64,000 nucleotides of DNA from Hydrogenophilaceae bacterium (GTDB lineage Bacteria; Pseudomonadota; Gammaproteobacteria; Burkholderiales; Thiobacillaceae), in assembly GCA_024709485.1 (NCBI GenBank), contig JANJWO010000009.1:1-64000 (forward strand). The letters run 5' to 3'. Positions 1-21,631 of the stretch are shown piece by piece. Both the position numbers and the translations under genes were made by a program. Each line of letters opens with the position of its first letter. Position 1 is the stretch's first letter. Below the pieces are notes generated by a model. That model saw only the letters and a program-made list of their open reading frames with translations. It had not been told where the DNA came from and ran no database searches.

Positions 1-66
1 GCCGACCTGCCGCCGATTCCGGCCAGCTTCGACGCCCCCACGACTTCGCAGGAAGAACGACCATGA
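1..66 (+). CDS. C-terminal tail of a conjugation gene (partial)
   Basis: The first frame of the window is open from base 1 and ends at a TGA at 64-66, giving a 21-residue tail (ADLPPIPASFDAPTTSQEER plus P). The TGA overlaps the ATG of trbL as ATGA, so the two genes are translationally coupled. In RP4/Tn4371-type clusters the gene before trbL is trbJ or a small TrbK-type entry-exclusion lipoprotein. Too little is visible to choose between them. Confidence 0.6.
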   Translation, partial: ADLPPIPASFDAPTTSQEERP

Positions 67-1430
67 ACGACGTCGCCATCATCGACCGTTTCCTCATCGT
101 CTTCTCCACCTACATCGACTCGGGCTTTGGCCTGCTGCGGGGTGAAGTTGCTTTCCTGACCGCCACGCTGGTGGCGATCGACATGACCCTGGCCGGGCTC
201 TACTGGGCGCTGGGGCACGCCACCGGCCAGGGTGAGGACGTGATGGCCAAGCTCATCCGCAAGGTGCTCTACGTCGGCGCCTTCGCCTACATCATCGGCA
301 CCTTCAACTGGCTCTCCGGCATCGTGTTTCGATCCTTCGCTGGCTTGGGCCTGACGGCTTCCGGTTCGACCCTGAGCATGGAGACCTTCCTGCAGCCGGG
401 GCGCCTCGCCAAGACCGGCATTGACGCTGCGGCGCCCATCCTGCAGCAGATCAGCGAGATGGCCGGCTTCCCGGAGGTGTTCATCAACATCGCACCCATC
501 GTCGTGATGTTCCTTGCGTGGCTGATCGTCATCGTGTGCTTCTTCGTGCTGGCGGTGCAGCTTTTCGTCACGCTGATCGAGTTCAAGCTGACCACGCTTG
601 CCGGCTTCGTGCTGGTGCCGTTCGCGCTCTGGAATAAGACCGCGTTCCTCGCCGAAAAAGTGCTCGGCAACGTGGTGTCCTCGGGCATCAAGGTGCTGGT
701 GCTGGCGGTGATCGTGGGTATTGGTACGGGGCTGTTCGCCGAATTCCAGGTCACGCCCAATGAACCCTCCGTCGACCACGCGCTGGTGGTGATGCTGGCC
801 TCGCTCGCCATGCTTGCGCTCGGCATCTTCGGACCTGGCATCGCCACTGGCCTGGTGTCCGGGGCGCCGCAGCTTGGCGCGGGTGCGATGGCCGGTGCAG
901 CGTTGGGCGCGGCCGGTACTGCCGTCGCGGTCGGTGCTGCCGCAACCGGCGTAGGCAGCGCGGTTGTGGCCGGGGCGCGCATAGCACCAGCCGCCGCCAA
1001 GATGGCCGCCAGTGGCGCGCGTGCCGCTGCCTCGACCGCAGGCAGTGCGCGGTCGGCATATCAAGCTGGTTCCGCCGCAGCCGGCAGTGGTCTCAAGGGC
1101 GCCGCAGCCGGCTTGGGCAACGTCGCCAAGACCGGTGCGCAGGCAGTCGGCCGGAAGGCCGCCGCCGGTATGCGCTCCATCGGGCAGCGTGCGGCTGCCG
1201 CTTTCCGTTCTGACGATGCGGGGCCGGTATCCGGTGGCGCCGCCGCACCAGGCCAATCCACCTTCGGCGAAGCCAATGCCGGCGCTGCTGACCAGCAACC
1301 CGCCTGGGCCAAGCGCCTTCACCGCCGACAGCAGATCAACCATGCCGCCACGACCGCCGCCCACACGCTGCGTGGAGGTGACGGCGGTGGTTCGAGCAGC
1401 GGCCCGAGCTTGCACGATTCCAACTCATAA
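63..1430 (+). CDS. trbL: Conjugal transfer protein TrbL (VirB6-like inner-membrane channel)
   Basis: A 455-residue polytopic inner-membrane component of the P-type (RP4/Tn4371-like) type IV secretion system, the counterpart of VirB6. Roughly residues 25-260 carry six or so hydrophobic segments, including one near 145-175 (IVVMFLAWLIVIVCFFVLAV). From about residue 265 onward the protein is a low-complexity Ala/Gly/Ser-rich tail of about 190 residues, typical of TrbL. The ATG at 63 overlaps the upstream stop codon, and trbF follows after 12 bases behind an AAGGAG-like site. Family and position in the trb order agree, so the call is firm. Confidence 0.95.
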   Translation: MNDVAIIDRFLIVFSTYIDSGFGLLRGEVAFLTATLVAIDMTLAGLYWALGHATGQGEDVMAKLIRKVLYVGAFAYIIGTFNWLSGIVFRSFAGLGLTASGSTLSMETFLQPGRLAKTGIDAAAPILQQISEMAGFPEVFINIAPIVVMFLAWLIVIVCFFVLAVQLFVTLIEFKLTTLAGFVLVPFALWNKTAFLAEKVLGNVVSSGIKVLVLAVIVGIGTGLFAEFQVTPNEPSVDHALVVMLASLAMLALGIFGPGIATGLVSGAPQLGAGAMAGAALGAAGTAVAVGAAATGVGSAVVAGARIAPAAAKMAASGARAAASTAGSARSAYQAGSAAAGSGLKGAAAGLGNVAKTGAQAVGRKAAAGMRSIGQRAAAAFRSDDAGPVSGGAAAPGQSTFGEANAGAADQQPAWAKRLHRRQQINHAATTAAHTLRGGDGGGSSSGPSLHDSNS

Positions 1431-1442
1431 GGAGAACAAACC

Positions 1443-2147
1443 ATGCGATTCAAGCGACCGCAGGTGCGCTATGCCGATACGCCGCAGCCCGCCACTCCAT
1501 ACCAATCCGCCGCGCAGGTGTGGGACGAGCGCATCGGTTCGGCCCGCGTGCAGGCAAAGAACTGGCGGCTGATGGCCTTCGGTTGTCTGGTGCTTGCGTT
1601 GTTGATGGCCGGTGGCTTGGTCTGGCGCTCTGCGCAGTCCATCGTCACGCCCTATGTGGTGGAGGTGGACCAGGCAGGCCAGGTCCGCGCCGTCGGCGAA
1701 GCCGCCACGCCGTACCGGCCGAACGATGCGCAGATCGCCTACCACCTGGCGCACTTCGTCACGCTGGTTCGCTCGCTGTCGATTGATCCCATCGTCGTGC
1801 GGCAGAACTGGTTCGATGCCTACGACTACACCACCGACCGCGGCGCGGGTGTGCTCAACGAGTACGCCCGCACCCATGACCCGTTCGCGCGCGTCGGCAA
1901 GGAGTCGGTCACGGTGCAGATTATCAGCGTCGTGCGTGCAAGTGATGCGTCGTTCAACGTGCGCTGGACTGAGCAGCGCTTCGTCAATGGCGCGCCGGCC
2001 GGCACCGAGCGCTGGAATGCCGTGATTTCCACCGTCCTGCAAACCCCGCGCACCGAGCAACGGTTGCGCAAGAACCCACTGGGTATCTACGTCAACGGCC
2101 TGTCGTGGAGCCGGGAACTCGATGCCAACGAAGGAGCCAAGCCATGA
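1443..2147 (+). CDS. trbF: Conjugal transfer protein TrbF (VirB8-like)
   Basis: A 234-residue bitopic assembly factor of the mating-pair-formation channel, equivalent to VirB8. It has a short cytoplasmic N-terminus, one membrane segment at about residues 43-60 (FGCLVLALLMAGGLVW), then a periplasmic domain containing the family pattern of an NTF2-like fold (VEVDQAGQVRAVG, later WNAVISTVLQTP and NPLGIYVNGLSWSREL). A ribosome-binding site (AAGGAG) lies 8 bases before the ATG. The stop codon overlaps the trbG start (ATGA), so it is part of one polycistronic trb operon. Confidence 0.95.
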   Translation: MRFKRPQVRYADTPQPATPYQSAAQVWDERIGSARVQAKNWRLMAFGCLVLALLMAGGLVWRSAQSIVTPYVVEVDQAGQVRAVGEAATPYRPNDAQIAYHLAHFVTLVRSLSIDPIVVRQNWFDAYDYTTDRGAGVLNEYARTHDPFARVGKESVTVQIISVVRASDASFNVRWTEQRFVNGAPAGTERWNAVISTVLQTPRTEQRLRKNPLGIYVNGLSWSRELDANEGAKP

Positions 2148-3136
2148 ACCCGTCTTTCCGCTTTTACGCTTTCGTGTTGACGCTTGCAGCGTTGTCGGGC
2201 TGCGCCACGCAGGGCACGCCGCCACCGGCCATCTCACTCGATGAACCGGTGCAGGCCCAGCCGTTGGCCGAACTGCCCAAGCCAGTCGAAGTGGTCGAGG
2301 TGCCGAAGGTGCTGCCAATGTTGGCGCAGATGAAACCGCTGCCCGAGGGCAACGAGGCCAAGACGGCACCAGAACCGGCCGATGAAAAGCTCCGGGTCTC
2401 GCGTGCCAATGCCGAGGCGCGCATTGCGCCCACGCGCGAGGGCTACGTCAACGCCATTCAGGTCTGGCCCTTCACCGATGGCGCGCTGTATCAGGTCTAT
2501 GCGGCGCCGGGACGGGTGACGGTGATTTCTCTCCAACCCGGCGAGGAACTGGTGACGGTCGCCGCTGGGGATACGGTGCGCTGGATCGTCGGTGACACCT
2601 CAAGCGGCACTGGTGATGCGCTACGCGTCAGCGTGCTGGTCAAGCCAATCCGCTCGGGCCTCAAGACCAATCTGGTTATCACTACCAGTCGGCGCACCTA
2701 CCTGATCGAGCTGACCTCGACCGAACGTGCCTGGATGGCTTCGGTGTCGTGGGAATACCCGAAGGATCGGATGCTGGCATTGCAACGCCAGGCACAGGCC
2801 GCGCAGGCGATAACGCCGATCGACACTGGACTGTCGTTGGAGAAGATTCGCTTCCGCTATGCAATCAGCGGCAGTACGCCGCCGTGGAAACCGCTACGCG
2901 CCTTCGATGACGGCGAGAAGGTCTACATCCAGTTCCCTCCGGGCATCGCTCAGGGCGAGCTGCCGCCGCTGTTCGTAATTGGCTCGCAGGGCGATGGCCA
3001 ACTGGTGAACTACCGTTTCCGTTCGCCGTACTACATCGTGGATCGACTGTTCGGCGCGGGCGAACTGCGCCTGGGTGGAGACAAGGGCAACGTGGTGCGC
3101 ATCGAGCGCACGGACGGCATAGCGCGGGGGAACTGA
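2144..3136 (+). CDS. trbG: Conjugal transfer protein TrbG (VirB9-like outer-membrane complex)
   Basis: A 330-residue VirB9/TrbG protein that builds the outer-membrane core of the conjugation channel with TrbI. The start at 2144 is chosen because ATGA overlaps the trbF stop and because it gives a clean lipoprotein signal ending in LAALSGC (Cys20). The N-terminal third is Pro-rich; the C-terminal VirB9 domain is recognisable from SWEYPKDRM through IRFRYAISGSTPPWKPLRAFDDGEKVYIQFP to the end. trbI begins two bases after its stop codon. A longer reading from 2105 would run inside trbF and lose the signal sequence. Confidence 0.95.
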   Translation: MNPSFRFYAFVLTLAALSGCATQGTPPPAISLDEPVQAQPLAELPKPVEVVEVPKVLPMLAQMKPLPEGNEAKTAPEPADEKLRVSRANAEARIAPTREGYVNAIQVWPFTDGALYQVYAAPGRVTVISLQPGEELVTVAAGDTVRWIVGDTSSGTGDALRVSVLVKPIRSGLKTNLVITTSRRTYLIELTSTERAWMASVSWEYPKDRMLALQRQAQAAQAITPIDTGLSLEKIRFRYAISGSTPPWKPLRAFDDGEKVYIQFPPGIAQGELPPLFVIGSQGDGQLVNYRFRSPYYIVDRLFGAGELRLGGDKGNVVRIERTDGIARGN

Positions 3137-3138
3137 GC

Positions 3139-4428
3139 ATGAGCCAGGACGACACCCCCGACCTTGTCACGCCGCAGACAGGCAAGGTGGCTCCAGAGAC
3201 GGTGGCGCTGCGCGCCCAGCCACGGCCGGTAACACGCCTGAACCGGCGTACATTGGCGATCCTGGTCGGCAGCCTCGCCATGGCCGTGCTGGGCGCCACG
3301 ATGTGGTCACTGCAACCGCGCAAGCGCAGTGCGAGCGAACAGACCGAGCTTTATAACGTAGATCGGGTGTCGCGCTCGGAAGGGCTGGACCAGCTTCCGG
3401 CCGATTACTCCAAACTGCCGCAGGCCTTGCCACCGCATGTGCTAGAGCTGGGGCCGCCGCTGCCGGGCGACTTGGGGCCGGCCATTGTGAAATCGCAGCA
3501 GCCAGTGGCACCCACCTACACGCCACCCGGCCACGCTCCGGCGAATGCCGAGCACGATGCACAGCGCAAGGAGGCGGAAGCGGCGGCGGGCGCGTCGGTG
3601 TTCTTCCGTTCCAGCAACCAGCGCGCCGCTGCCACACCGACACAAGCGACTGGTACTGCGCCGGTATCCGGTCTTGCTGGCTTCGATCCGATGGCCGCAG
3701 GGCCGGCCTCGACAGCAGCTCAGCCGGCCGACCCGACCGCTGTGCAGAACCGGCAAGACCAGAAAGAGGCGTTCCTGAAAGCCGGTTCCACGGAAACTCG
3801 TAATTCCGGGAATCTGAAAATTCCTACTTCGCCGTATCAGGTGATGGCCGGGACGGTGATCGCTGGCGCGCTGGTTACTGGCATCAAGTCGGATTTGCCA
3901 GGCGACGTGATTGCCACGGTGACGGAGCCGGTCTATGACACGGCTACCGGTAAGTTTCTGCTGATCCCGCAAGGCTCGCGCATCCTCGGCCGTTACAACA
4001 GCCAGGTGAGTTACGGGCAAAGCCGGGTGCAGGTGGTATGGAATCGGATCATCCTGCCCGACACGTCTTCGCTGACGCTGGACAACCTGGCTGGTGCCGA
4101 CCCTGCCGGCAACTCCGGACTGGAGGATGGCGTCGATTGGCATTGGGATCGCATCTTTTCCGGCGCGGCACTGACGACGCTGCTGGGTGTCGGTGCCGAA
4201 CTGGCCGCGCCGGAGAACCGCCAGAACGGCGATCGCGTCATCAACGCCGGACGCAACAGCTTGCAGGACAGTGTGAACCAGGTCGGCCAGGAGATGACCC
4301 GGCGCAACCTCAACATCCAGCCCACGTTGACGGAGCGGCCGGGCCTGCCGGTGCGCATCATCGTCAATCGGGATCTGGTGCTGCGGCCCTATCAGCCGCT
4401 GTTCTTCAATCGGGGGACTTCGCGATGA
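3139..4428 (+). CDS. trbI: Conjugal transfer protein TrbI (VirB10-like)
   Basis: A 429-residue VirB10 homologue that spans the inner membrane and periplasm and couples ATP-driven steps to the outer-membrane pore. One membrane segment lies at about residues 35-56 (TLAILVGSLAMAVLGATMW). It is followed by a Pro/Ala-rich periplasmic linker and the beta-barrel VirB10 domain from about residue 225 (SPYQVMAGTVIAGALVTGI, then DTATGKFLLIPQGSRILGRY and VNRDLVLRPY near the C-terminus). It ends in ATGA overlap with the DUF2274 gene. Length and motifs are normal for the family. Confidence 0.96.
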   Translation: MSQDDTPDLVTPQTGKVAPETVALRAQPRPVTRLNRRTLAILVGSLAMAVLGATMWSLQPRKRSASEQTELYNVDRVSRSEGLDQLPADYSKLPQALPPHVLELGPPLPGDLGPAIVKSQQPVAPTYTPPGHAPANAEHDAQRKEAEAAAGASVFFRSSNQRAAATPTQATGTAPVSGLAGFDPMAAGPASTAAQPADPTAVQNRQDQKEAFLKAGSTETRNSGNLKIPTSPYQVMAGTVIAGALVTGIKSDLPGDVIATVTEPVYDTATGKFLLIPQGSRILGRYNSQVSYGQSRVQVVWNRIILPDTSSLTLDNLAGADPAGNSGLEDGVDWHWDRIFSGAALTTLLGVGAELAAPENRQNGDRVINAGRNSLQDSVNQVGQEMTRRNLNIQPTLTERPGLPVRIIVNRDLVLRPYQPLFFNRGTSR

Positions 4429-4688
4429 GCACTACGCGCAAGCTGCGGCTGGGGCCGCTGCCCAAGACCGAGAGCATCAAGCTGACCTTCACGTGCCCGA
4501 CCAGCCTCAAGGCGGACCTCGACCGCTACGCCGCGCTGCATGCGCAGACCTATGGCGAAACAGTCGATGCGGCAACGCTGATCCCGCACATGCTTGAGGC
4601 GTTCATGGTCAGAGATCGAGGGTTCCGGCGACAAAAGGAGGAGGGCGGACGGGGTCCTTCGCGTACTCCAGCATCGGAAGGGCGCTGA
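4425..4688 (+). CDS. DUF2274 family protein of trb-type conjugative elements
   Basis: An 87-residue basic protein with no membrane segment. Its core (KLTFTCPTSLKADLDRYAAL, then ETVDAATLIPHMLEAFMVRDRGF) matches the DUF2274 family that regularly follows trbI in Tn4371-like elements; the function is unknown. The arrangement of an N-terminal strand followed by two helices looks ribbon-helix-helix-like, so a regulatory or DNA-binding role is possible but only an inference. The start overlaps the trbI stop (ATGA), so it is the last gene of the trb operon and the last convincing gene of the element. Confidence 0.85.
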   Translation: MSTTRKLRLGPLPKTESIKLTFTCPTSLKADLDRYAALHAQTYGETVDAATLIPHMLEAFMVRDRGFRRQKEEGGRGPSRTPASEGR

Positions 4689-5170
4689 GGATTGTTTTGG
4701 GATTTCTATAAGTTGTTGTTGTCGTAGTCTAGCTACGACCGAATGCGCTTTCTCAAGTCACTGGTGGTCGGCCACAGGGCGGGGCGGGAATGGCAGGATT
4801 CGCTGAACAGCAAAGATGGCGATCTGACCGAATATTCTTGTGGATATGTGCAGGCTAACGCCGATTGCCGAGTCACGTCCTTCATTGAAGGGGCTATTGG
4901 CTGGGTTCAGTGCCGCATTGCGTAATGCACCGATGACGGCAGTTCTCGCAAATTGGATTGCGTTGCCATGCGAAGGGCTGAAGTTTGGTCCTACGTCCGG
5001 TATGATGTGCGTTGGTTGACAATGGTGTTGCCAGAGTTGCCGCCCCGCAAATCGCTCCATCTCCCGCGCCAGCAAAAGATGTGCGCTTCTTACGGTAAAA
5101 GTGACGGTAACGCCTTATGTTGATCACAGTCAATCCCTTTAACCACGCGGGTTTAGGCGACCTGTTGATG

Positions 5171-5185
5171 ATCGAGTGGGAATGA
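5171..5185 (+). other. Candidate attachment site: guaA 3'-end-like sequence
   Basis: ATCGAGTGGGAATGA reads in frame as Ile-Glu-Trp-Glu-stop, the conserved C-terminal end of GMP synthase (GuaA), but no guaA gene precedes it. Conjugative elements that use the 3' end of guaA leave such a duplicated tail at their far end. Its place, between the trb genes and a terminator that could originally have served guaA, fits attR. The match is visible in the sequence; the role as an attachment site is inference, and the 15 bases alone could be chance. Confidence 0.45.
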
Positions 5186-5205
5186 TCGGGGAGAAGGGCA
5201 AGCAG

Positions 5206-5236
5206 TGGGCGGCTGTCTTGGCATGCCGCCCATTTT
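5206..5236 (+). terminator. Rho-independent terminator
   Basis: Arms TGGGCGGC (5206-5213) and GCCGCCCA (5225-5232) form a perfect 8-base stem with an 11-base loop, followed by TTTTCTT. It is oriented for plus-strand transcripts. It lies 20 bases after the guaA-like stop codon, where a guaA terminator would be expected. Confidence 0.75.
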
Positions 5237-5251
5237 CTTGCCTCGCATTTA

Positions 5252-5279
5252 ATTTAACATAATATACATTATGCGAAGT
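5252..5279 (-). other. dif site (XerC/XerD chromosome dimer resolution site)
   Basis: Read on the minus strand, the 28 bases are an XerC arm ACTTCGCATAA, a central region TGTATA and an XerD arm TTATGTTAAAT. The central region and XerD arm are identical to Escherichia coli dif, and the whole site differs from it at only three of the first four positions. Those first bases are the variable part among proteobacterial dif sites. This places the window at the replication terminus. The site is 16 bases beyond the terminator at 5206-5236 and about 560 bases beyond the last trb-operon gene. Confidence 0.93.
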
Positions 5280-5362
5280 TACCAACGGGAAACCGGGGGC
5301 AAGACTGCTCAAGATTTGGGCGCTCTCCACCCCTGAAAACCCGTTGCGCAAACTGGCCCCGC

Positions 5363-5467
5363 TTAGGGATTCGACACGGTTTCGGTTTCGGAGTCGTTCG
5401 GCTCGTCTGGAATGCGAAACTGCTTGCCGACGACAACGGTGTCTTGGACTGCGCGCGGGTTAGCCAT
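5363..5467 (-). CDS. Possible 34-residue reading frame, unknown
   Basis: An ATG at 5467 opens MANPRAVQDTVVVGKQFRIP and continues with an acidic, Glu/Thr/Asp-rich end to a TAA at 5363-5365. The third codon positions are GC-rich, like a real coding segment, but the peptide matches no family I recognise. It may be a remnant of an older gene beside dif rather than a working gene. Confidence 0.2.
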   Translation of the reverse strand: MANPRAVQDTVVVGKQFRIPDEPNDSETETVSNP

Positions 5468-5532
5468 TCAAAGAACTCATCGGCAAGTGCGGCAGCGGTG
5501 ACGGAGCGCAATGTCGAAACCGGATGCATAAT

Positions 5533-5567
5533 TTCCTCGCTGAAGGAAATTCCTCGCTGAAGGGAAA
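5533..5567. repeat. Two tandem 17-18-base repeats before the EamA gene
   Basis: TTCCTCGCTGAAGGAAA (5533-5549) is followed at once by TTCCTCGCTGAAGGGAAA (5550-5567). The second copy contains the GAAGGGA ribosome-binding site for the gene starting at 5571, so the duplication places a second weaker copy upstream. Confidence 0.7.
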
Positions 5568-5570
5568 TAG

Positions 5571-6617
5571 ATGAGTGCTTCCAATCCTGTTTGGCTCGCA
5601 CTGCTGTCGGCCGCGTCGTTTGGCGCAAGCACGCCTTTCGTCAAGCTGTTGGCGGGAGAACTCCCGCCGCTTGTGCTTGCGGGCTTGCTCTATGCCGGCT
5701 GCGGCCTTGGTCTGGCGGCAATCCGGCTTGTGCGCGACCGCGGTTGGCAATCCGGCGGGCTGTCCGAGGGGGAATGGCGCTGGTTCGGCGCAGCCATCGT
5801 CTTCGGTGGCGTGTTGGGGCCGGTGCTGCTGGTGTTCGGCCTGACGCGGATCGAGGCCAGCGCCGCCTCGCTCCTGCTCAACCTCGAGGCGGTTTTCACG
5901 GCGCTGCTGGCCTGGATCATATTCAGGGAAAACGCCGGCCGGCGCGTTGTGCTCGGCATGCTGCTCATCGCCGCCGGCGGCGCGGCGCTGGCCTGGCCTG
6001 CCGCCGGCGCCAAGGCTCCCGATTGGATCGGCCTCCTGGCCATCGCTGCCGCCTGCCTGTGCTGGGGTATCGACAACAATCTGACGCGCCGCGTCTCGGC
6101 TTCGGACGCCCTGTTCATTGCCGGCGCCAAGGGCCTGGCTGCCGCAGCGGTCAACCTTGCCCTCGCCTTTGCCTTGGGCGCCGCCCTGCCCGCCTGGCCT
6201 GCCACAGGCGCCGCCCTGACAGTCGGCTTCATCGGCTATGGCTTGAGTCTCGTGCTTTTTGTCGTGGCCTTGCGCGGGCTGGGCTCGGCACGCACCGGCG
6301 CCTATTTCTCCACCGCGCCCTTCATCGGCGCGGCGGTTTCCCTATTGCTGCTGAACGAGCCCACGCCTGCCCCCTTCTGGTTCGCGGCCGGCCTCATGGG
6401 CCTGGGCGTCTGGCTGCACCTGACCGAATACCACGTTCATGAGCATACGCATGAAGCGCTGGAACACGCGCATCGCCATGTGCACGATGCGCATCACCAG
6501 CATGCGCATGATTTCGCGTGGGACGGCCGGGAACCGCACAGCCATTCGCACCGCCACGCCAGCGTCACGCACAAACATCCGCATTATCCCGACATCCACC
6601 ATCGCCATGAGCACTGA
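5571..6617 (+). CDS. EamA/DMT-family transporter with a histidine-rich C-terminal tail
   Basis: A 348-residue inner-membrane carrier of the drug/metabolite transporter superfamily. Two EamA repeats give about ten membrane segments over residues 1-285 (typical pieces are ASAASLLLNLEAVFTALLAW and TGAYFSTAPFIGAAVSLLLL). The last 60 residues form a cytoplasmic tail with about 24 histidines in HxH and HH patterns (HVHEHTHEALEHAHRHVHDA). Such tails bind Zn, Ni or Co in metal transporters. The substrate is unknown; metal handling is an inference supported only by the tail and by the nearby copper genes. GAAGGGA before the ATG supports the start. Confidence 0.85.
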   Translation: MSASNPVWLALLSAASFGASTPFVKLLAGELPPLVLAGLLYAGCGLGLAAIRLVRDRGWQSGGLSEGEWRWFGAAIVFGGVLGPVLLVFGLTRIEASAASLLLNLEAVFTALLAWIIFRENAGRRVVLGMLLIAAGGAALAWPAAGAKAPDWIGLLAIAAACLCWGIDNNLTRRVSASDALFIAGAKGLAAAAVNLALAFALGAALPAWPATGAALTVGFIGYGLSLVLFVVALRGLGSARTGAYFSTAPFIGAAVSLLLLNEPTPAPFWFAAGLMGLGVWLHLTEYHVHEHTHEALEHAHRHVHDAHHQHAHDFAWDGREPHSHSHRHASVTHKHPHYPDIHHRHEH

Positions 6618-6646
6618 GCCCAGCTCCGCGCCTTGATCCTGGCGGC

Positions 6647-8335
6647 TCAGCGCACGTAGGCATCGCTCGCGTACCGGCGCATCATGCGGTGGCTGTTGAA
6701 GATCGACGCGCTCTTGGCGATCGCGCCTTTCATCACGGCGAGCCAGCCCGGCCGGTCATCGTAGTACAGCGGCAGCACCACGCGCTCCAGTTTGTCATAG
6801 AGCGAAGCCGCGTCATCCTGGCTGGCTTCTCCGTTGCCGACACCCCACCCCGTTACGCCCTCGATGCGCCCTTCCGCCCACCAGCCATCCAGTACGCTCA
6901 GATGCGGCACGCCGTTGAAGGCGGCTTTCATCCCGCTGGTGCCGGAGGCCTCCCAAGGAGGCAGCGGCGTGTTGAGCCAGATATCGACGCCGGAAACCAT
7001 GGCGGCGGCAATTTCCATGTCGTAATTGGGCAGGAACACCACCGGTACGGCGCCGGCCAGTTCGCGCATATGGGCATGGAGCGCCTCGATGGCATTTTTA
7101 CCCGCCTGGTCCCGAGGGTGCGCCTTGCCCGCCAGGACGATTTGAATCGGGCGCTGCGCGGCGATGGCCTTGAGCCGGCCAATGTCCGAGAACAGAAGCT
7201 CCGGCCGCTTGTAGGCCGTCATGCGCCTGGCAAAGCCCATGATGCAGCGGTCAGCGGCGAGGCCGACGCCGGTCAGCGCCTTTATCTGATCGATCAGCTC
7301 CTGCTTGGCCTGCGCGTGCGCCTGCCAGATCGCATCGTCGGCCAGGCAGCAATCGACTCTGACCAGCAACTCGGGCTCATGACACCATCCCGGCAAATGC
7401 CGGTCGTAAAGCCGGGCGAACGCCGGATGCGTCCAGGCATAGGGGTGCACGCCGTTGGTGATTGCGCGCACGCGGTATCCCGGAAACAACTGGCGCGAGG
7501 TTTCGGCGTGACGCTTGGCGACGCCGTTCACGTACTCGCTGGTGTTGAGCGCGAGCCGCGTCATGTTCAGCTGATCTTCGCCGGCCAGCTGTTTCAGCAC
7601 GGGCAGGTCGATGAAATCGCCCAGCACGTTCCGCACCAATCCGTAATCGAACTTGTCATGGCCGGCTTCCACGGGCGTATGGGTGGTGAAGTTGCACAAC
7701 TCGCGCACGCGCGGGATGTCGTAGGGGGTGTCGCCGGGGCGCAGGTCTTCGCTCGGATAGGCGTAGACGTTCAGCAGTTCGAGCCCCAGCAGGGCGGCAT
7801 GGCCTTCGTTCAGATGGTATTGGTGGATGCGAAAGCCCAGGGCGTGGATCATGCGAACGCCGCCGATGCCGAGCACGATCTCCTGCTTCAGCCGGTAACT
7901 TTCGTCGCCGCCGTAGAGATGGTGGGTCAGTTGGCGGTCGTCGGGATTGTTTTCCGCCAGGTCGGTGTCGAGCAGGATCACCGGCTGGCGCCCGCCCATG
8001 CGCCCTTCCAGGACGTAGAGCCATCCGCCGATCCACACATTCCGGCCTTCGATGCTCACCGCAACCCGTGCCTGCAGCGGTTTCGTCCATCTGGCCGGAT
8101 CCCAGGGGTCGGGCTCCTCGTGTTGGCGCCCGGCCTCGTCGATGCGCTGACGGAAATATCCGGCGCGGCTGGCGAGGCTTACCGTGACCAGCGGAATATC
8201 CAGGTCGGCCGCCGAGCGCACGGTGTCGCCGGCCAGCACCCCCAGGCCGCCGCTGTAGGTGGGGATGTCCGGGCGCAGCGCGATCTCCATGGTGAAGTAG
8301 GCGATGCGCTCGATGAGTATGAATTCGCGGGGCAC
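6647..8335 (-). CDS. Alpha-glucan phosphorylase (GT35, short form)
   Basis: A 562-residue enzyme that releases glucose-1-phosphate from glycogen-like alpha-1,4-glucans. It belongs to the short alpha-glucan phosphorylase family (TIGR02094 type), which lacks the N-terminal extension of classical GlgP. Diagnostic parts are FTMEIALRPDIPTYSGGLGV at the N-terminus, HQYHLNEGHAALL, and GFARRMTAYKRPELLF. The C-terminal EASGTSGMKAAFNGVPHLS carries the lysine expected to bind pyridoxal phosphate. It is the last gene of a minus-strand run that includes the copper genes, 37 bases after the preceding coding region. Short phosphorylases of this type occur in low-oxygen or stress loci. Confidence 0.92.
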   Translation of the reverse strand: MPREFILIERIAYFTMEIALRPDIPTYSGGLGVLAGDTVRSAADLDIPLVTVSLASRAGYFRQRIDEAGRQHEEPDPWDPARWTKPLQARVAVSIEGRNVWIGGWLYVLEGRMGGRQPVILLDTDLAENNPDDRQLTHHLYGGDESYRLKQEIVLGIGGVRMIHALGFRIHQYHLNEGHAALLGLELLNVYAYPSEDLRPGDTPYDIPRVRELCNFTTHTPVEAGHDKFDYGLVRNVLGDFIDLPVLKQLAGEDQLNMTRLALNTSEYVNGVAKRHAETSRQLFPGYRVRAITNGVHPYAWTHPAFARLYDRHLPGWCHEPELLVRVDCCLADDAIWQAHAQAKQELIDQIKALTGVGLAADRCIMGFARRMTAYKRPELLFSDIGRLKAIAAQRPIQIVLAGKAHPRDQAGKNAIEALHAHMRELAGAVPVVFLPNYDMEIAAAMVSGVDIWLNTPLPPWEASGTSGMKAAFNGVPHLSVLDGWWAEGRIEGVTGWGVGNGEASQDDAASLYDKLERVVLPLYYDDRPGWLAVMKGAIAKSASIFNSHRMMRRYASDAYVR

Positions 8336-8372
8336 GATGGACTCCTTACATCGATGGCTGGTGCATGGTGCG

Positions 8373-8798
8373 TCAGGGCATCATTGTTTCATTTGACAAG
8401 CGCCAGCGAAATATTCGTTTCGCGCCCCCCACTCCGTCGATATGCAGTTCGATGGTCTGTGGAAAGGCCGGCGAAGGCCGAAACCGGAGCACGCCCTTGC
8501 GATGATGTCCGCCCGGCGGGTCGCCATCCCAGTCGAGCGGCTTTTGCGGCTTGTTCGAGTCCACGATCAGCACAGCCGTATGCACCATGTCTTGATCGAG
8601 CGCCATGCTGTGCGTGCTCAGGCTGATCTCGAAATCCCAGCTCCCCGCGGCGGGGGAAATATTCCTGGGCGTCGCCATTACCGTGACTGAAGCTTCGCGG
8701 TTCGTCTGAGTTGCAAAATCGGCGGCCTGGGCAGGGCCGGACAGGCCAAGCGAAAGCATCGAGAGAAACATGTTCGCCAATACACCGAGCTTATTCAT
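8373..8798 (-). CDS. Exported protein of unknown function
   Basis: A 141-residue protein with a signal peptide cut near residue 25 (LGLSGPAQA-ADFA). The mature part is rich in beta-strand-like segments and ends in RIFRWRLSNETMMP; it has no cysteines and no recognisable domain. Its start overlaps the end of the upstream membrane protein gene by four bases, so the two are co-translated in the copper ATPase operon. A periplasmic role in copper handling or redox is possible only by context. Confidence 0.7.
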   Translation of the reverse strand: MNKLGVLANMFLSMLSLGLSGPAQAADFATQTNREASVTVMATPRNISPAAGSWDFEISLSTHSMALDQDMVHTAVLIVDSNKPQKPLDWDGDPPGGHHRKGVLRFRPSPAFPQTIELHIDGVGGAKRIFRWRLSNETMMP

Positions 8799-9253
8799 TT
8801 GTGCGCCTCCATAAGCGCCATGTGCCTGCTGGCCTGCAGGGTCTTGCGGCCGATGTAGAGCAAGCTGGCCAGATTGAATGCGATGCCGACCCAGAAGAGT
8901 TCGACCTGATATTGAGCCGCCAGCGCAACGACGCCGGTTGCCCCCAGCACCGGCAGCACATTGGCGAGATAATGCGTGCAGCAGGAGATCATGGCCCCGG
9001 TGGAGGTCGCGCCGGAAACGGCCATGACTTTGCCCGAGGCGCCGGAGTGGCGCGTCACCTGCCGCAGCCGCACATAGAGGGCGATCTGCAGGCCGAAGCC
9101 CAAGGCCAGGGCGAGCACGAAATACCAGAATTCGCTGAATTGTCCGAGGGCATAATCCCAGCCCGACACCAGTGTCAGGATCGCAAAATAGGCGGCAAGC
9201 AGAATGAGGCTGCCGGCAAGACCCATCCCGGCGGGTTTGAACCAGGTTTGCAT
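8795..9253 (-). CDS. Four-helix membrane protein with a CC-x-H motif, copper operon
   Basis: A 152-residue protein with four membrane segments (for example LAGSLILLAAYFAILTLVSG and FWYFVLALALGFGLQIALYV). The third segment begins with MISCCTHYLANVLPVLG, a Cys-Cys-x-His pattern that could bind Cu(I) or heme. The start at 9253 is preferred over a TTG 18 bases earlier because AAGGGGA lies just before this ATG. It directly follows the copper ATPase gene (19-base gap) and overlaps the next gene. I do not recognise a characterised family. Confidence 0.75.
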   Translation of the reverse strand: MQTWFKPAGMGLAGSLILLAAYFAILTLVSGWDYALGQFSEFWYFVLALALGFGLQIALYVRLRQVTRHSGASGKVMAVSGATSTGAMISCCTHYLANVLPVLGATGVVALAAQYQVELFWVGIAFNLASLLYIGRKTLQASRHMALMEAHK

Positions 9254-9272
9254 GGCAATCCCCTTGCCCAAT

Positions 9273-11570
9273 CTAAAGTGACAGGCGCCGCAGGCGCAAT
9301 GCGTTCGCCACCACGGACACCGAACTGAAGCTCATGGCCGCCGCGGCGATGATCGGCGAAAGCAGCAGGCCAAAGAACGGATACAGCACGCCTGCCGCGA
9401 TGGGCACGCCGAGGATGTTGTAGATGAAGGCGAAAAACAGGTTCTGGCGGATGTTGCGCATGGTCGCATGCGAGAGCCGGCGAGCGCGGGCGATGCCACG
9501 CAGATCGCCCTTGACCAGGGTGACGCCGGCACTTTCCATGGCCACATCGGCACCGGTGCCCATGGCGATGCCGACCTGGGCCTGGACGAGCGCCGGCGCG
9601 TCGTTGATGCCATCGCCGGCCATGGCGACCATGCGGCCCTCGGCTTGGAGCCGCCTGACCACTTCGGCCTTCTGTTCGGGCAGCACTTCCGCCTGCACCC
9701 GCTCGATGCCCAGCCTGCGCGCGACTGCTTCGGCCGTGGTGCGGTTGTCGCCGGTGAGCATGACGACCTCGATACCTTCCTCGCGCAGCACTTTCAGCGC
9801 TTCCGGCGTGGATTGCTTGATGGGGTCGGCGACACCGATCAGGCCGGCAGCCTTGCCGCCCACGGCGAGGTACATCACCGTCTGGCCGTCCTGGCGCAAA
9901 GCATCGGAGCGCATATGCAGCGGCCCGGCATCAATGCCCATTTCCTCCAACAGCTTGCGGTTGCCCAGCGCAACTTGGTGCCCATCAACCTCTCCGACAA
10001 CGCCGCGCCCGGTTTTGGAATCGAAATTTTGCGGGGAAACCAAATCAATCTTGCGCGCCTCGGCGCCGTGCACGATGGCCGCGGCCAGGGGATGTTCGCT
10101 GCCCCGCTCCACGCTTGCCGCCAGCCGCAGCACGACTGCCTCATCGAACCCCGCTGCCGGCTCCACAGCCACCAGCTTGGGCTTGCCTTCAGTGAGCGTG
10201 CCGGTCTTATCCACGACTAGGGTGTCCACCTTGCGCATGATTTCCAGCGCCTCGGCATTCTTGAAGAGGACTCCCATGGTGGCGCCGCGCCCGGCGCCGA
10301 CCATGATGGACATCGGCGTGGCAAGCCCCAGGGCACAGGGACAGGCGATGATCAGCACGGCCACCGCGTTGATCACCGCATGCGCGAGACGCGGCTCGGG
10401 TCCCCAAAGGCCCCAGACGGCCAGCGTGATCAGCGCGATCAGCACCACTGCCGGCACGAAGTAGCCGGATACCACGTCCACCAGCTTCTGGATGGGCGCG
10501 CGCGAACGTTGCGCCTCGGCCACCATCTGCACGATCCGCGCCAGCACGGTGTCGGCGCCGACCTTCTCCGCCCGCATCAGGAGGCTGCCGGTGCCATTCA
10601 ACGTGGCGCCGATCAATTTCGCCCCGGCCTGTTTCTCCACCGGAATCGGCTCGCCGGTGACCATGGATTCGTCGACGTGGCTGCCCCCTTCCAGCACGAC
10701 GCCATCCACCGGCACCTTCTCGCCGGGGCGGATGCGCAGGCGGTCGCCGGGCCTTACATGCTCGATCGGAATGTCAGCCTCACTGCCATCGTCGCGCACG
10801 ATGCGCGCCGTTTTCGGCGCCATGCCCAGCAACATCTTGATGGCGGCGTTGGTGCGGCTGCGCGCGCGCAGTTCCAGCACCTGTCCGAGCAGCACCAGCG
10901 CAGTGATCATGGCGGCAGCCTCGAAGTACACCGGCACCACGCCCATTTCGTTGAACACCGAGCGCGGGAAGATGCCCGGCGCGAGCGTGGCGACTACGCT
11001 GTACCCCCAGGCCACCAGCACGCCCAGGCTGATCAGGGTAAACATGTTGAGATTGCGCGTGGCCAGCGACTGCACCGCGCGCACATGAAAAACCCAGCCG
11101 CCCCACAGCGCCACCGGCGTCGCCAGCGCGAGTTCGATCCATTGGTGCTGGCGCGGCTCGATGATGAGCATCATTTGTTCAGGCCAGAATTCCGCCGCCA
11201 TGGCGCCGAGGAAGACCGGAGCCGCCAGCAGGGTGCTAATCCAGAAGCGGCGGCTCATGTCGCGCAGTTCCGCGCTCTCCCCCTCCTCCATCGTGACGCC
11301 GCGCGGCTCGAGCGCCATGCCGCAGATGGGACAGTTGCCCGGTTGATCGCGGATGATTTCCGGGTGCATGGGGCAGGTGTAGGAAAGCGGCGCTAACGGC
11401 GTCTTTTCGGATTCGGCTGGCGCCTGCCGGGCGGATAGATAGCTTTGCGGAGCCTGGCGGAATTTGTTCAGGCAGTGCTCGGAGCAGAAGAAATGTGTGG
11501 CGCCCTGGTGAATGAAGCGATATTTGCTGTCTTCTGTCACCTGCATGCCGCACACCGGGTCTCTGAGCAT
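9273..11570 (-). CDS. copA: Copper-exporting P1B-type ATPase with N-terminal YHS and metal-binding domains
   Basis: A 765-residue ATPase that should pump Cu(I) out of the cytoplasm. Residues 1-45 are a YHS domain (DPVCGMQ, FFCSEHC) and residues 64-90 a heavy-metal-binding segment ([19 protein letters not shown]) in place of the usual GMxCxxC domain. Catalytic parts are all present: TGEPIPVEK, the transmembrane CPC at 410-412, the phosphorylated Asp454 in [28 protein letters not shown], and the Cu-type C-terminal YN and [13 protein letters not shown] segments. Flanked by Spy-like proteins and an unknown membrane protein in one operon. Confidence is high for copper or silver specificity, from the CPC, YN and MS-SS signature. 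Confidence 0.95.
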
Positions 11571-11652
11571 ATCGGTCTTGCCCTCAAGGGAAACGCCGGC
11601 AGACGTGCGCCTGCCAGGCGGCAGCGTCAGGGCGGAAAAAATTCCACAGGCT

Positions 11653-12273
11653 TTATTGCCTGCTCATCCATCCGTAGCCGCGCTGCGAACGCGCCAATGC
11701 CTGGCGCTGGGCGTGGGTCAATACGCCGTCGATTTTCCGCTGCAGTTCGATGGCCGATTCATACTGTTGGCGCTGCAGTTCGAAGAGCTTTTGTGTGCTG
11801 CCGCGGATCGCTCCCCAGTCGCGCGGGTCGGCGGCATAGAGTTCGTTGAGGCGCGCTTGGGTTTGCCACATCTGCTGCATCAGCGCGCGGCCGCGTTCGA
11901 ATTGCTCGGCTTGCAACTGCTCAATCTGTCGGGATTGCTCCGGCGTCAGATCGGGCAAGGCGCCTGGCATCGTGCCGTAGCCGGGCATGCCAAACCCCAT
12001 TCCTGGCATGGCGCCGCCGTAGGGGCCCGCCATACCGTAATTGCGCCCAGCAGCCCACCTGTCATCACCCATCCAGCCGGGCCCCATGCCATGCCAGCCC
12101 CACGCGCGGGATGCCGGATAGGGTGCGCTTTCGTCGCTCCGCCCGTCCACCCGCCCCCAGCCATGCCAAGGGCCGTAGCCCATGCCCCAAGGTGCGCGGA
12201 AGAATGCGAAATAGCCGGTAATGACGACGAGGGCGAGCCAGAGTACGGTCCAGAAAGCATGTTTCCGATTCAT
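11653..12273 (-). CDS. Spy/CpxP-like periplasmic metal-stress protein
   Basis: A 206-residue protein with an uncleaved or signal-anchor helix at residues 5-25 ([18 protein letters not shown]). A Met/Gly/Trp-rich linker follows, then an LTxxQ-type helical domain beginning [13 protein letters not shown] at about residue 110. The LTxxQ family (Spy, CpxP, ZraP) are periplasmic chaperones or metal sensors; the Met-rich linker suits Cu(I). The ATG at 12273 is chosen because it opens the signal sequence and the reading frame upstream is arginine-rich, out of character. It lies between copA and the SHOCT gene in the same operon. Confidence 0.8.
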
Positions 12274-12287
12274 GTGTTTCCCCCCGT

Positions 12288-12533
12288 TTACTGGCCGAGG
12301 TCCTGCTTTTTCTTCCGGTATTCCTGCTCGTCGATTTCCCCGCGCGCGTAGCGCTCCTTGAGGATGTCGAGGGCTCGGCTGCCGCTGCCGCTGCCGCTGC
12401 CGCCCCCAGGGCTTGAGCTTGGACCAAGCAACCATTTGACCAGCACGACGATGCCGACGATGATCAAAACCCACCACATGATCATGAAGACGCCGCCAAA
12501 TCCGAACCCCCCCATGCCATAGCCACCCATCAT
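12288..12533 (-). CDS. Small membrane protein with a SHOCT domain
   Basis: An 81-residue protein: a Gly/Met-rich start (MMGGYGMGGFGFGG), one membrane segment at about residues 15-36 (FMIMWWVLIIVGIVVLVKWL), a Gly-Ser linker, and a C-terminal SHOCT domain (ALDILKERYARGEIDEQEYR). SHOCT domains are short oligomerisation modules. It lies 14 bases upstream of the Spy-like gene and is common next to copper ATPases with YHS domains, but its role is not known. Confidence 0.88.
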   Translation of the reverse strand: MMGGYGMGGFGFGGVFMIMWWVLIIVGIVVLVKWLLGPSSSPGGGSGSGSGSRALDILKERYARGEIDEQEYRKKKQDLGQ

Positions 12534-12588
12534 TGCATTCTCCTGGGATAATTTCGGCTGGCTGTCGAACAGCCGGCCAGAAGTGCGC

Positions 12589-13107
12589 TCAATAGCCCAT
12601 CATTCCCCAGCCGTAGCCGCGGCGGAACTGGGATTTCTGTTCCTTGGTGAGAATGTCCGCGAACTTGTTGTCCGCTTCGATGCGGGCCTCGATGGCCTCG
12701 CGCTGCAGCTTCGCGAGCTTTTCATAGGCTTTTCCGATGGCAGAGGGATCGCGTTTCTCGGCGCCGTAAAGTTCGGCGAGCTTTGCCTGCTCTTCCCACA
12801 TCTGGCTCATGAGCTTGCGGTGCTTTTCCCACAAATTGCTTTGAATCTTTTCGGCTTGCTCGGCTTGCGCATCGCTCAACTTGAGCCCTGCACCATAGCC
12901 GCCCATCATGCCGGGGCCCATGCCGTAGCCCGGCCCATAACCGCCCATCATGCCGGGACCCATGCCATAGCCCGGCCCATAACCGCCCATCATGCCGGGA
13001 CCCATGCCGTAGCCTGGGTAGGGGGGCTGTTGGGCCTGGAGCGATGTCACGCCCAGGAGTCCGCAAAGGCCGACGGCCACGAGGGACATGCGAATACGTT
13101 TGCTCAT
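12589..13107 (-). CDS. Spy/CpxP-like periplasmic protein with Gly-Tyr-Met repeats
   Basis: A 172-residue exported protein, signal peptide MSKRIRMSLVAVGLCGLLGV with cleavage after LQAQ. Three tandem 14-residue repeats of the form GYGMGPGMMGGYGP follow, then an LTxxQ-like helical domain (LKLSDAQAEQAEKIQSNLWE to LTKEQKSQFRRGYG). The ATG at 13107 has AAGGAG ten bases before it. It is probably the first gene of the copper operon. The Met/Tyr/Gly repeats resemble periplasmic Cu(I)-binding segments. Confidence 0.85.
   Translation of the reverse strand: MSKRIRMSLVAVGLCGLLGVTSLQAQQPPYPGYGMGPGMMGGYGPGYGMGPGMMGGYGPGYGMGPGMMGGYGAGLKLSDAQAEQAEKIQSNLWEKHRKLMSQMWEEQAKLAELYGAEKRDPSAIGKAYEKLAKLQREAIEARIEADNKFADILTKEQKSQFRRGYGWGMMGY
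12900..13015. repeat. Three 42-base in-frame tandem repeats
   Basis: A 42-base unit (begins GCCCATCATGCCGGG) is repeated almost exactly three times inside the Spy-like gene and encodes the Gly-Tyr-Met repeats. Differences are limited to a few third positions, so the duplication looks recent or is kept uniform by conversion. Confidence 0.85.
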
Positions 13108-13362
13108 GTTGTTGCTCCTTCCTTCCAAGTCCGGAGGGGTGTCGATCGTGACGCCCACACGGGAGAAACCGGGAATTTCATCGTAGTTCAGCCGAGGTCG
13201 CTTACAACAGAAAACCGCCCCGGTTTCATCGAAAAGCGGCGGCGATGCCCGCCTTTTATCTTGAAAAAACAATGGATAATGCGCGGGACTTAACAAGCTT
13301 TGGGAGCCGCGCCGAGTTCACCCCGCCAACGCTGCGGTTGATTTTCGTTTGTTGGTTTTTGC

Positions 13363-13812
13363 TCACGGCCGCAACTTGGCTTCCTTGTTGCGCTCGCGCG
13401 CGATGAGGCGGGTCAGCGCGCCCAGTTCCTCGGCCAGCAGTTCGAGCAGATCGTCGAGCGCCAGGATGCCGATCAGATCGCCGCCCGTATCGACCACCGG
13501 CATGCGCCGCACGCCCCTGTCGCGCATGTAGCGGATGGCCTCGAACACGCCGGCATCTTCCCGCACCGTGGCCAGATCCGGCGTCATGATTTCGCCCACC
13601 TTGAGGCTCGCCGGATCAAGGCCGACGGCGATCGCATCCACCACGATGTCGCGGTCGGTGAGAATGCCGACCGGCGTGCGCAGGCCGCCCTCCTCCATGA
13701 CCACGACCACATCGCCGACATGATGCTGGCGCATCAGCCGCGCCGCCTCGGCGACCGTGGCCGCGCGCGTGACGACGACGACTTCGCGGTTGCAGATTTC
13801 TCCGATAGTCAT
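13363..13812 (-). CDS. Protein of two CBS domains
   Basis: A 149-residue cytoplasmic protein that is essentially one CBS pair (Bateman module), a sensor for adenine nucleotides such as AMP or ATP. The first CBS covers residues 1-60 (AARLMRQHHVGDVVVV, VGILTDRDIVVDAIA) and the second 70-130 (VGEIMTPDLATV, IRYMRDRGVRRMPVVD). No enzymatic domain is fused. Stand-alone CBS proteins of this type are induced by low oxygen in Burkholderia, and the surrounding genes fit that theme, but no regulatory site was found. Confidence 0.92.
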   Translation of the reverse strand: MTIGEICNREVVVVTRAATVAEAARLMRQHHVGDVVVVMEEGGLRTPVGILTDRDIVVDAIAVGLDPASLKVGEIMTPDLATVREDAGVFEAIRYMRDRGVRRMPVVDTGGDLIGILALDDLLELLAEELGALTRLIARERNKEAKLRP

Positions 13813-13887
13813 ACCGCCACCCTTAATGTTCTTTTCTCGAAATAGGCAGCCCGGCGCACCGCGTCGACGGGCTGTCGAGGCCGCGCG

Positions 13888-14340
13888 CTAGCGGGGCACG
13901 ACGCGGGCGCTTTCTCCGCTGCCCTCGATCCGCACCTTCAAGCCTGTCTGCAGGCGCGCGTCCGGTGGCTGCGTAATCGTCACGCGCCCGCCCGTCGCCA
14001 TGTCCACGGTAATGCGCTGGGCATCCTTTTTCTTGAGCTTGCTCTCGGCATAAGTGCCGGCCGCACCCCCGACCACGGCGCCCACCACCGCAGCGGTCTT
14101 GCTGTCGCCGATCCCGGCGCCGAGCAGGCCGCCCGCCACGGCGCCCACGGCGGTGCCCATGCCCAGCTTGTAGCTTTCATCCACCTGGATGTTTTCCAAT
14201 TGGGCAATCGTCCCGTCGCGCTCGGACTGGCTCACGGCGGTGCCGCTCTCGCCGTATTTCGGGCCGCCCAGGCTGCCCATGTCGGCGCAGCCGCCGGCCA
14301 CCGCCAGCAGCAGCGCCGGCAATAGCATTCGCTTGTTCAT
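13888..14340 (-). CDS. Glycine-zipper (2TM) lipoprotein
   Basis: A 150-residue exported protein. The signal ends LLLAVAGGC (Cys18), a slightly weak lipobox. At about residues 60-95 a glycine-zipper double helix (MGTAVGAVAGGLLGAGIG, AAVVGAVVGGAAGTYAE) should insert in the outer membrane, as in SlyB/Pcp-type lipoproteins. A small beta-rich C-terminal part (ITVDMATGGRVTITQ) follows. It is transcribed with the CBS gene downstream. The role is probably envelope stress, by family. Confidence 0.85.
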   Translation of the reverse strand: MNKRMLLPALLLAVAGGCADMGSLGGPKYGESGTAVSQSERDGTIAQLENIQVDESYKLGMGTAVGAVAGGLLGAGIGDSKTAAVVGAVVGGAAGTYAESKLKKKDAQRITVDMATGGRVTITQPPDARLQTGLKVRIEGSGESARVVPR

Positions 14341-14635
14341 GATGCACCTCTCCTGGCTGTAAAAGCTTCAATATAGGCAGCCGGCAAAAAACAGCGAGGC
14401 CGGGCCGCTGCCATGCCGCCGCCCAGTTCCGGGGATTTCATCGGCTGCAGCGCATGCGCGCGGCCTTGCCTCTGCGCCTCTCGGCGCGCCCGCTGTGTTT
14501 TGTTTATAGCTGATGCCGACGCCAGCGTCGCACTGATTGGATGCGCCGGGATCGATGCCAATGATGGCCAGGGCACGCCCTTGCCTGGGCTTGTCCCAAC
14601 CATGGCGAATTCCATCCAGGCGGTCGATGCGCGGA

Positions 14636-17083: not shown

Positions 17084-17229
17084 GTTTTTTTCGCGTGCTC
17101 CCAGGATCAGGATGGTCGGGCAGGGCCCGAGCGTCGTCTGCTATATATTAAAAATAGATAGCGGGATCGAAAAAGCATCATCAAAGCATCATCGGCTTTT
17201 ATGCCGCGCGCGAGAGACAGGGTAACGCC

Positions 17230-17730
17230 ATGATCCACCACCCCATTGATGTCGCCAGCAGGGTCAGCCCCAGGCTGTCGGAATTGCTCAGGAGCCGAGT
17301 CAACGATCCCGACTGCGAGCAGCCCATCACGCTCGTCATGGTCCGGCGCTTCCTGGCCGGGCTGCTGCCTGTCGATTTCAGGGAAGCCGAACGGCTGCAT
17401 CACTTCGATATCGACGCTTCGCTACTCGACGAGATGGATGCCCTGATCGAGGAATACGGCGAGACCGCGCTTGCCGTGGATTTCGTGCAGGCCAGCGCCA
17501 GCGAGCAGTTGTCGCGCGTGATCGAGACCCTGGTCAACGATGAAAACCGCGAACACCCGCCCACGCTGTCTGCGGTGAAGGATGCCATCGTTTCCGGCCT
17601 GGGCGTGAGGCTGGTCGGCGAAGGGGTGCTGGATGAGGATGAGGACGACACCCTGCTGTCCGAGATCGAGGCGCTGATCGAGCAGTTCGGCGCCGACACC
17701 CTGGCCGAGGATTATCTGCGCTACGAATAG
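17230..17730 (+). CDS. Acidic conserved protein of unknown function
   Basis: A 166-residue soluble acidic protein made of two similar halves: DASLLDEMDALIEEYGETAL near residues 60-80 and DTLLSEIEALIEQFGADTLA near 140-160. The internal duplication suggests an all-helical dimer-like fold. No catalytic motif is visible. It is divergent from the LonH-type protease (147-base gap) and followed by the BCAM0308-like gene, which hints at a shared stress regulon. The start is supported by codon use from the first residue, though the ribosome site (ACAGGGTAAC) is weak. Confidence 0.75.
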   Translation: MIHHPIDVASRVSPRLSELLRSRVNDPDCEQPITLVMVRRFLAGLLPVDFREAERLHHFDIDASLLDEMDALIEEYGETALAVDFVQASASEQLSRVIETLVNDENREHPPTLSAVKDAIVSGLGVRLVGEGVLDEDEDDTLLSEIEALIEQFGADTLAEDYLRYE

Positions 17731-17818
17731 GCGCGGACCGGATTGGCGGCGTGCAGGCGAAGCCGCCTCGCTCGATGGAAAAACCTCGGATGTCTGAAAA
17801 ACCGGAAAGGAGGCCGAA

Positions 17819-18313
17819 ATGAAAACCCGGTTTGCTGGTTTTACGCCCGTACGGCACGATCGCCTGCTGCAAGAATTCAGGCATGACCCCTATCAGGCCA
17901 GGCACAAGCCGCATGAGCCCACGGTCTGCCCGCAATGCGGCGCCGTGTTCCACGATGGCCATTGGCAATGGCTGCCCAAACCCGCAGGCGCGCACGAGGC
18001 CATGTGCCCGGCCTGCCAGCGCATTCACGACGAATTCCCGGCCGGCTACGTGACGATCGGCGGCGCTTTCTTCAAGGATCACCGCGAGGAGCTGCTGCAT
18101 CTGGTGAGGCACGAGGAAGCCAGGGCCAGGGCCGAACACCCCCTCAAGCGGATCATGGGCATCGAGGACCGCGAAGACGGCGTGCTCGTCACCACCACCG
18201 ACATCCACCTCGCGCGCGGCATTGGCGAAGCCTTGCACCACGCCTATCAGGGCGAACTGGAATTCCACTACAACGAACAGGAAAACCTGCTGCGGGTCGT
18301 GTGGGAGCGCTAG
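17819..18313 (+). CDS. BCAM0308-family zinc-ribbon protein
   Basis: A 164-residue cytoplasmic protein with a zinc ribbon built from CPQCG (residues 38-42) and CPAC (62-65), then an alpha/beta part ending YNEQENLLRVVWER. It matches the family named after Burkholderia cenocepacia BCAM0308, a gene in the low-oxygen-activated locus. The ribbon resembles ribosome-export factor NMD3, but function is unproven. AAAGGAGG lies nine bases before the ATG, one of the strongest ribosome sites in the window, pointing to high expression. Confidence 0.85.
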   Translation: MKTRFAGFTPVRHDRLLQEFRHDPYQARHKPHEPTVCPQCGAVFHDGHWQWLPKPAGAHEAMCPACQRIHDEFPAGYVTIGGAFFKDHREELLHLVRHEEARARAEHPLKRIMGIEDREDGVLVTTTDIHLARGIGEALHHAYQGELEFHYNEQENLLRVVWER

Positions 18314-18334
18314 GGCTTTGCAGCGCCGGCCGCC

Positions 18335-18724: not shown

Positions 18725-18772
18725 GCCGGGATGTAGGCTAGAATTTCGACTGTCTCCGCATTGCTTCATGCC

Positions 18773-19186: not shown

Positions 19187-19248
19187 GGCGGCGGCTCGCG
19201 CCCCTCCTTGCCTTCGATCCTGAGTGTCGCCTGCTGGCAGGATAATAA

Positions 19249-19280
19249 TGCAATGCAGTTGCATATGCAACTGCATTGCA
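19249..19280. repeat. Perfect 32-base palindrome between convergent genes
   Basis: The half TGCAATGCAGTTGCAT is followed at once by its exact reverse complement, with no spacer or mismatch. It lies 63 bases after the Fur-family stop codon and 47 bases before the end of malQ. On the minus strand it is followed by TTATTAT, so it could weakly end malQ transcription, but the spacer-less form suits a protein operator (or a cruciform) better. Confidence 0.9.
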
Positions 19281-19326
19281 ACAAGTTGCGCGGTGTATCC
19301 GCGCGCACGGAAAGCGCGACCGGACC

Positions 19327-21573: not shown

Positions 21574-21631
21574 GCATTGCGTGGAGCATGGCCCGGAACC
21601 GTGACAGGCAAAAGTCAGCGGCGTTTCCGGT

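Follow-up and report, generated by a model that had tools for sequence, protein, structure and literature searches.

The stretch of DNA analysed here, referred to below as the window, comprises 64,000 nucleotides and corresponds to bases 1-64000 of contig C53 (98,849 bases) in a MAG of 2,544,337 bases, 77 contigs and 83.48% completeness; it begins at the end of that contig. Its left part carries the genes trbL, trbF, trbG and trbI and a DUF2274 gene, the remainder of this conjugation module lying beyond the contig end and no relaxase gene being among those assembled, and these genes are followed by a non-coding stretch, a copy of the guaA 3′ end, a stem-loop and a dif site (Table 1). When positions 1-5280 of the window were compared with a plasmid collection, 137 records matched, and among the matches listed (20 of 137) the identity was 80-81% over 87-88% of this segment. 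The inverted repeat of the stem-loop is present also in two congeners (G007 and G006), and the stem-loop is perhaps the guaA terminator; the consensus terminator scan called none within 4600-5650.

Table 1. Features of the left part of the window, in order of position.
Feature	Coordinates	Strand	Supporting observation
trbL	63-1430	+	Pfam TrbL, 1.1e-50; two NCBIfam TrbL models above cut-off
trbF	1443-2147	+	VirB8 domain; NCBIfam TrbF above cut-off; 87.6% identical to G052 TrbF
trbG	2105-3136	+	CagX domain; TrbG_Ti above cut-off
trbI	3139-4428	+	Pfam TrbI, 8.4e-61; NCBIfam matches all under their cut-offs
DUF2274 gene, last of the trb module	4425-4688	+	PF10038, 1.1e-23
Non-coding right end of the element (482 bases)	4689-5170	+	block 5034-5110 recurs elsewhere at a near-constant distance from the core
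attR core, duplicated guaA 3′ end (IEWE-stop), ATCGAGTGGGAATGA	5171-5185	+	element boundary
Stem-loop between guaA tail and dif	5196-5243	+	-32.4 kcal/mol, z -3.48, 2 of 200 shuffles as stable
Chromosomal dif	5252-5279	-	XerD arm faces the element, XerC arm faces away

The first-pass annotation had placed a 28-base dif site at this position, about 560 bases from the end of a conjugative element. Using as search pattern what we take to be the E. coli dif sequence, we confirmed the site: its minus-strand letters, ACTTCGCATAATGTATATTATGTTAAAT, differ from E. coli dif at 3 of 28 positions, and the pattern gave a single match in the window and none in 100 shuffles. With a 26-base pattern and up to 3 mismatches, it is the sole dif in all 2,544,337 bases of the MAG, which encodes both XerC and XerD (NCBIfam, above cut-off). 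The same 26-base pattern, with up to 2 mismatches, was found in 19 of 61 genomes including its own, and the sequence is identical to that of the window in three others (G006, G013 and G023), so that the alteration of the XerC arm is the version normal in this lineage. The distance holds good when counted from the stop codon of the DUF2274 gene (4688), which lies 563 bases from dif, but the true edge of the element is the guaA core, separated from dif by 66 bases.

The trb element terminates at this core and not at dif. The core is the only match in the MAG at up to 1 mismatch, the chance expectation for exact matches being about 0.005 by a simple count, and the same core was found at the guaA ends and island edges of relatives. 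The guaA gene of G006 itself ends in the core sequence (one mismatch), and the stretch from core to dif is common to the window and to the empty site of that genome. As in guaA-associated ICEs, the boundary is a duplicated guaA 3′ end with GAGTGGGA. Of guaA, the window has just the tail, which is what insertion of an element in the guaA 3′ end should leave at the far boundary of that element.

The genus is represented by 8 other genomes, in which dif (up to 2 mismatches) was found in 4 and guaA in 5; both were found in G002, G005, G006 and G007, and in G008 guaA was found and dif was not at up to 2 mismatches. The comparison with a related genome devoid of the element, as the first-pass annotation had proposed, was provided by G006, in which the guaA tail (L023:2426) is followed by 55 bp and then by dif at 2496. 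Two congeners carry an occupied site. G007 has a 7.65-kb island between cores at L024:11683 and 19335, the second core lying 67 bases before dif (19417), and no Phage_integrase match was obtained within this island. In G002, contig C11 holds guaA, the core, a 418-aa integrase and trb genes together, and contig C15 holds a second core 71 bases before dif; its TrbL, TrbF, TrbG and TrbI are 64, 80, 75 and 61% identical to those of the window, the trb module being inverted and located beside the integrase rather than beside the right core, which adjoins a DNA methylase gene. In G005, guaA and dif are on one contig, 9.4 kb apart, with no second core, and thus a simple island does not explain the interval.

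As to other contents of these regions, the G007 island (L024:11683-19335) carries genes for an usher, a spore-coat-U protein and AbiEi, and G005 carries a TOTE-type primase-helicase gene (L022:17093-19441) about 0.5 kb downstream of guaA. The gene content to the right of dif (window 5320-21632) differs strongly among congeners: G002 continues directly with window 11557 onward, G005 with 6647 onward, and G006 with about 2.2 kb of other sequence before window 21632 onward.

The right end of the element was then followed across the order by a search of 300 genomes with window 5010-5190, which matched at least 16 of the 300, its own included; this is a lower bound, since G002 was among the genomes searched and was unreported, yet its right end is 69.5% identical. 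In five genomes (G066, G114, G197, G199 and G212) the six matches, 23-35 bases long, fall on the core itself and are thus uninformative on right-end conservation, and G052 and G248 gave longer matches that extend into the core. The remaining 8 genomes match only inside 5015-5124, with the core excluded, and in all eight the degenerate core pattern finds an exact match 50-61 bases further on (47-61 in the window), the spacing being within 3 bases of that in the window. The block 5034-5110 may have an integrase-binding role.

The two genomes with longer matches carry an integrase on the guaA side. In G052, the TrbF, TrbG and TrbI proteins are 88, 84 and 81% identical to those of the window; contig C16 has the same right end (77%) together with the core, and contig C5 has guaA, the core and a 443-aa integrase within its final 15.4 kb; the two contigs presumably hold one element. 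In G248, a genome of one contig, guaA is followed in order by a 408-aa integrase and, at a distance of about 34 kb, by the right end; the integrase is 55.6% identical to that of G002, the right core is ATCGAGTGGGATGGT, which the degenerate core pattern missed, and another core lies inside the interval from guaA to the right end. No match to the Trb proteins of the window was found in the G248 island. The guaA-side integrases of G002, G052, G248 and G212, the four examined, all have Arm-DNA-bind_3 and Phage_integrase domains. Separately, G232, G114 and G212 (L113, L114 and L117) have guaA-type cores, two or three in number, only a few kb from one another, a pattern that would fit tandem insertion of islands at this gene.

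The left end of the element in the window falls outside the MAG. Neither the guaA gene nor a second guaA core (up to 1 mismatch) was found in this MAG at its 83.48% completeness. It has 5 Phage_integrase matches, two of which are XerC and XerD, and a search of the contigs of the three others with the G002 integrase found no match at E 1e-3. The first-pass annotation had named a left boundary with a different direct repeat and its own tyrosine integrase as evidence that would tell against its reading; such a repeat is indeed present at the right boundary, and the integrase is observed in relatives only (G002, G052, G212 and G248), because the left end is not in the MAG. Contig C38 (L121, 6590 bases) was considered as the left continuation of the window and rejected, because it has its own trbL start and because the ends share no exact overlap as long as 15 bases. 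It is a second trb module, with trbB, trbE and trbJ recognised by family search and traG, trbC and trbD by eye, and its trbL start is 93% identical to trbL of the window over 317 bases; it may come from another, related element or represent a strain variant. An adapter-like sequence, presumably Illumina, is present at one end of C38.

The dif at 5252-5279 is the ordinary chromosome-dimer-resolution site of the host at the replication terminus. The check by GC skew that had been recommended was carried out on both sides in G002, on the left side in G007 and on the right side in the window contig, together with raw counts of GGGNAGGG, which we take to be the E. coli KOPS motif. On the left flank, the skew is +0.031 with GGGNAGGG at 16:1 (forward:reverse) over 80 kb of G002, and +0.031 with 23:1 over 104 kb of G007; on the right flank, it is -0.028 with 1:10 over 47 kb of G002, and -0.027 with 4:13 over 94 kb of the window contig. 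The sign thus switches across guaA/dif in relatives, and the right side of the window contig agrees; left of its dif, where only 5 kb of element is available, the skew is +0.010 and GGGNAGGG is absent. This flip of both measures indicates an ordinary terminus site with the islands on its guaA side.

In this Thiobacillus-like lineage, 55-71 bp separate the guaA tail from dif. A scan for the adjacency (exact pattern, 45-75 bases from tail to dif) over one genome from each of 84,980 species, a collection that may omit the window's own genome, gave 7 matches. Three are guaA tails (L130, L132 and L133), taken as G007, G006 and G002, and the other four have no IEWE-stop before dif and were taken as chance. 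Judging from this pattern, which would miss variants, strict adjacency of guaA tail and dif appears in this genus only. Outside the genus, guaA was placed in G012, G013, G019, G020, G023, G030 and G033, and of these genomes G020 alone has guaA together with a dif-like site on a contig, at a distance of about 6 kb. A limited literature search on guaA, dif and XerCD gave no description of the linkage. In G033, two contigs, C169 (L010) and C261 (L020), have dif and the same left flank, and about 1.4 kb on C261 separates dif from the flank that starts about 30 bases past dif on C169; no second dif-like site was found in the 1596 bases inspected, and the difference may reflect either an insertion at dif or a bin that contains two strains.

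Among known systems, Tn4371-type ICEs have a P-type trb module like the visible part of that in the window, whereas the target in the window is guaA. The att core of these ICEs, which we take to be TTTTTCAT, has 3 matches in the window, the nearest at 11085, and none in 1-11084, hence none near the boundary. The guaA gene is reportedly a hot spot, for which guaA-element papers cite Song et al. 2012, and tyrosine integrases beside guaA in guaA-associated ICEs bear the published label 'P4-type'.

Elements in guaA with the GAGTGGGA core have been described, some with trb genes (PMC7419628, PMC7775301, PMC9376610, PMC10386936), as has a Delftia island adjoining guaA (PMC8248536). The 76-kb guaA element of Pseudomonas sp. 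M1 and relatives lies downstream of guaA, like the element of the window, and has a trbBCDEJLFGI operon and traG at its far end, likewise as the trb genes of the window are at the right end; its integrase is beside guaA, an arrangement observed in the present lineage in relatives of the window only, and it differs in host and cargo, and in that guaA of the window's host lies 55-71 bp from dif (PMC10386936). ICE6775 of P. fluorescens SBW25 occupies the guaA 3′ end with a 12-bp repeat, GAGTGGGAGTGA, where the window has GAGTGGGAATGA; its predicted MPF-T conjugation genes are a shared trait and its mercury resistance is a difference (PMC7419628). ICERspD18B and GIsul2 use the guaA 3′ end with GAGTGGGA, like the element of the window, and differ in cargo; insertion of ICERspD18B at guaA was shown in an E. 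coli transconjugant, and the integrase of GIsul2, which is described as a genomic island, was found by knock-out to be needed (PMC7775301, PMC9376610). IMEX such as the gonococcal genetic island resemble the present case in being mobile elements near dif, but they rely on host XerCD and on a dif-like site of their own, and no such site was found in the element of the window (PMC5357621).

Taken together, the trb element almost certainly entered via the guaA 3′ end, and it stands beside dif since guaA does. After integration into the guaA 3′ end, the left boundary would have guaA in full and the right boundary a duplicate of the 3′ end (5171-5185). With dif located about 55-71 bp past the end of guaA, an element entering guaA would come to lie between the two. 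This reading builds on the core, on the conservation of the right end, on the congeners with one empty site and two occupied ones, and on the terminus polarity in relatives, and it supposes for the element itself an integrase and a left end, both outside the assembly. Besides this missing left end, points that weigh against it are the G005 interval with no second core, the G007 island with no Phage_integrase match, the inverted trb module of G002, the G248 island, with its additional core and no match to the Trb proteins of the window, and G008, in which guaA but no dif was found. Most likely the element adds a member to the known guaA-type trb ICEs, and its arrangement is essentially ordinary.

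The suggestion that the trb element either uses dif itself or was inserted next to it is accordingly retained in its second half only, the edge being the guaA core. That an element with a dif-like att site was integrated at dif by host XerCD, in the manner of IMEX, agrees with the closeness of dif and with the presence of XerC and XerD in the MAG, but the second dif-like site that was sought for such an element was not found in the MAG (up to 3 mismatches, 83.48% complete), the core-dif stretch recurs at the empty site of G006, and relatives have an arm-binding integrase beside guaA. After this search and the comparison of the dif flanks of relatives, Xer-based integration was rejected, and we give it hardly any credence. 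Just as improbable is a chimeric contig joining host and element wrongly: the MAG is in 77 contigs and 83% complete and adapter-like sequence ends one of them, yet the expected core is precisely where the junction lies, and like junctions with dif beyond them occur in G002 and G007.

A decayed or rearranged guaA element, no longer mobile, would be compatible with arrival at guaA but is unlikely. Only the right end is assembled, the G007 island is devoid of a Phage_integrase match and the guaA-dif interval of G005 of a second core; on the other hand, the five element genes in the window have open reading frames, with nearly full-length matches of trbL and trbF to their NCBIfam models. Very unlikely, on our estimate, is the idea that the guaA-dif linkage makes the terminus a standing landing strip for conjugative elements whose stability, copy number or excision is influenced by Xer/FtsK activity at dif.

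Entry via guaA removes an apparent Xer-integrating trb ICE and puts a standard mechanism in its place. The sole unusual fact is how near dif this frequently used ICE attachment site is, at 55-71 bp, and this linkage of guaA and dif offers a natural setting in which to ask whether large insertions directly beside dif disturb chromosome dimer resolution.
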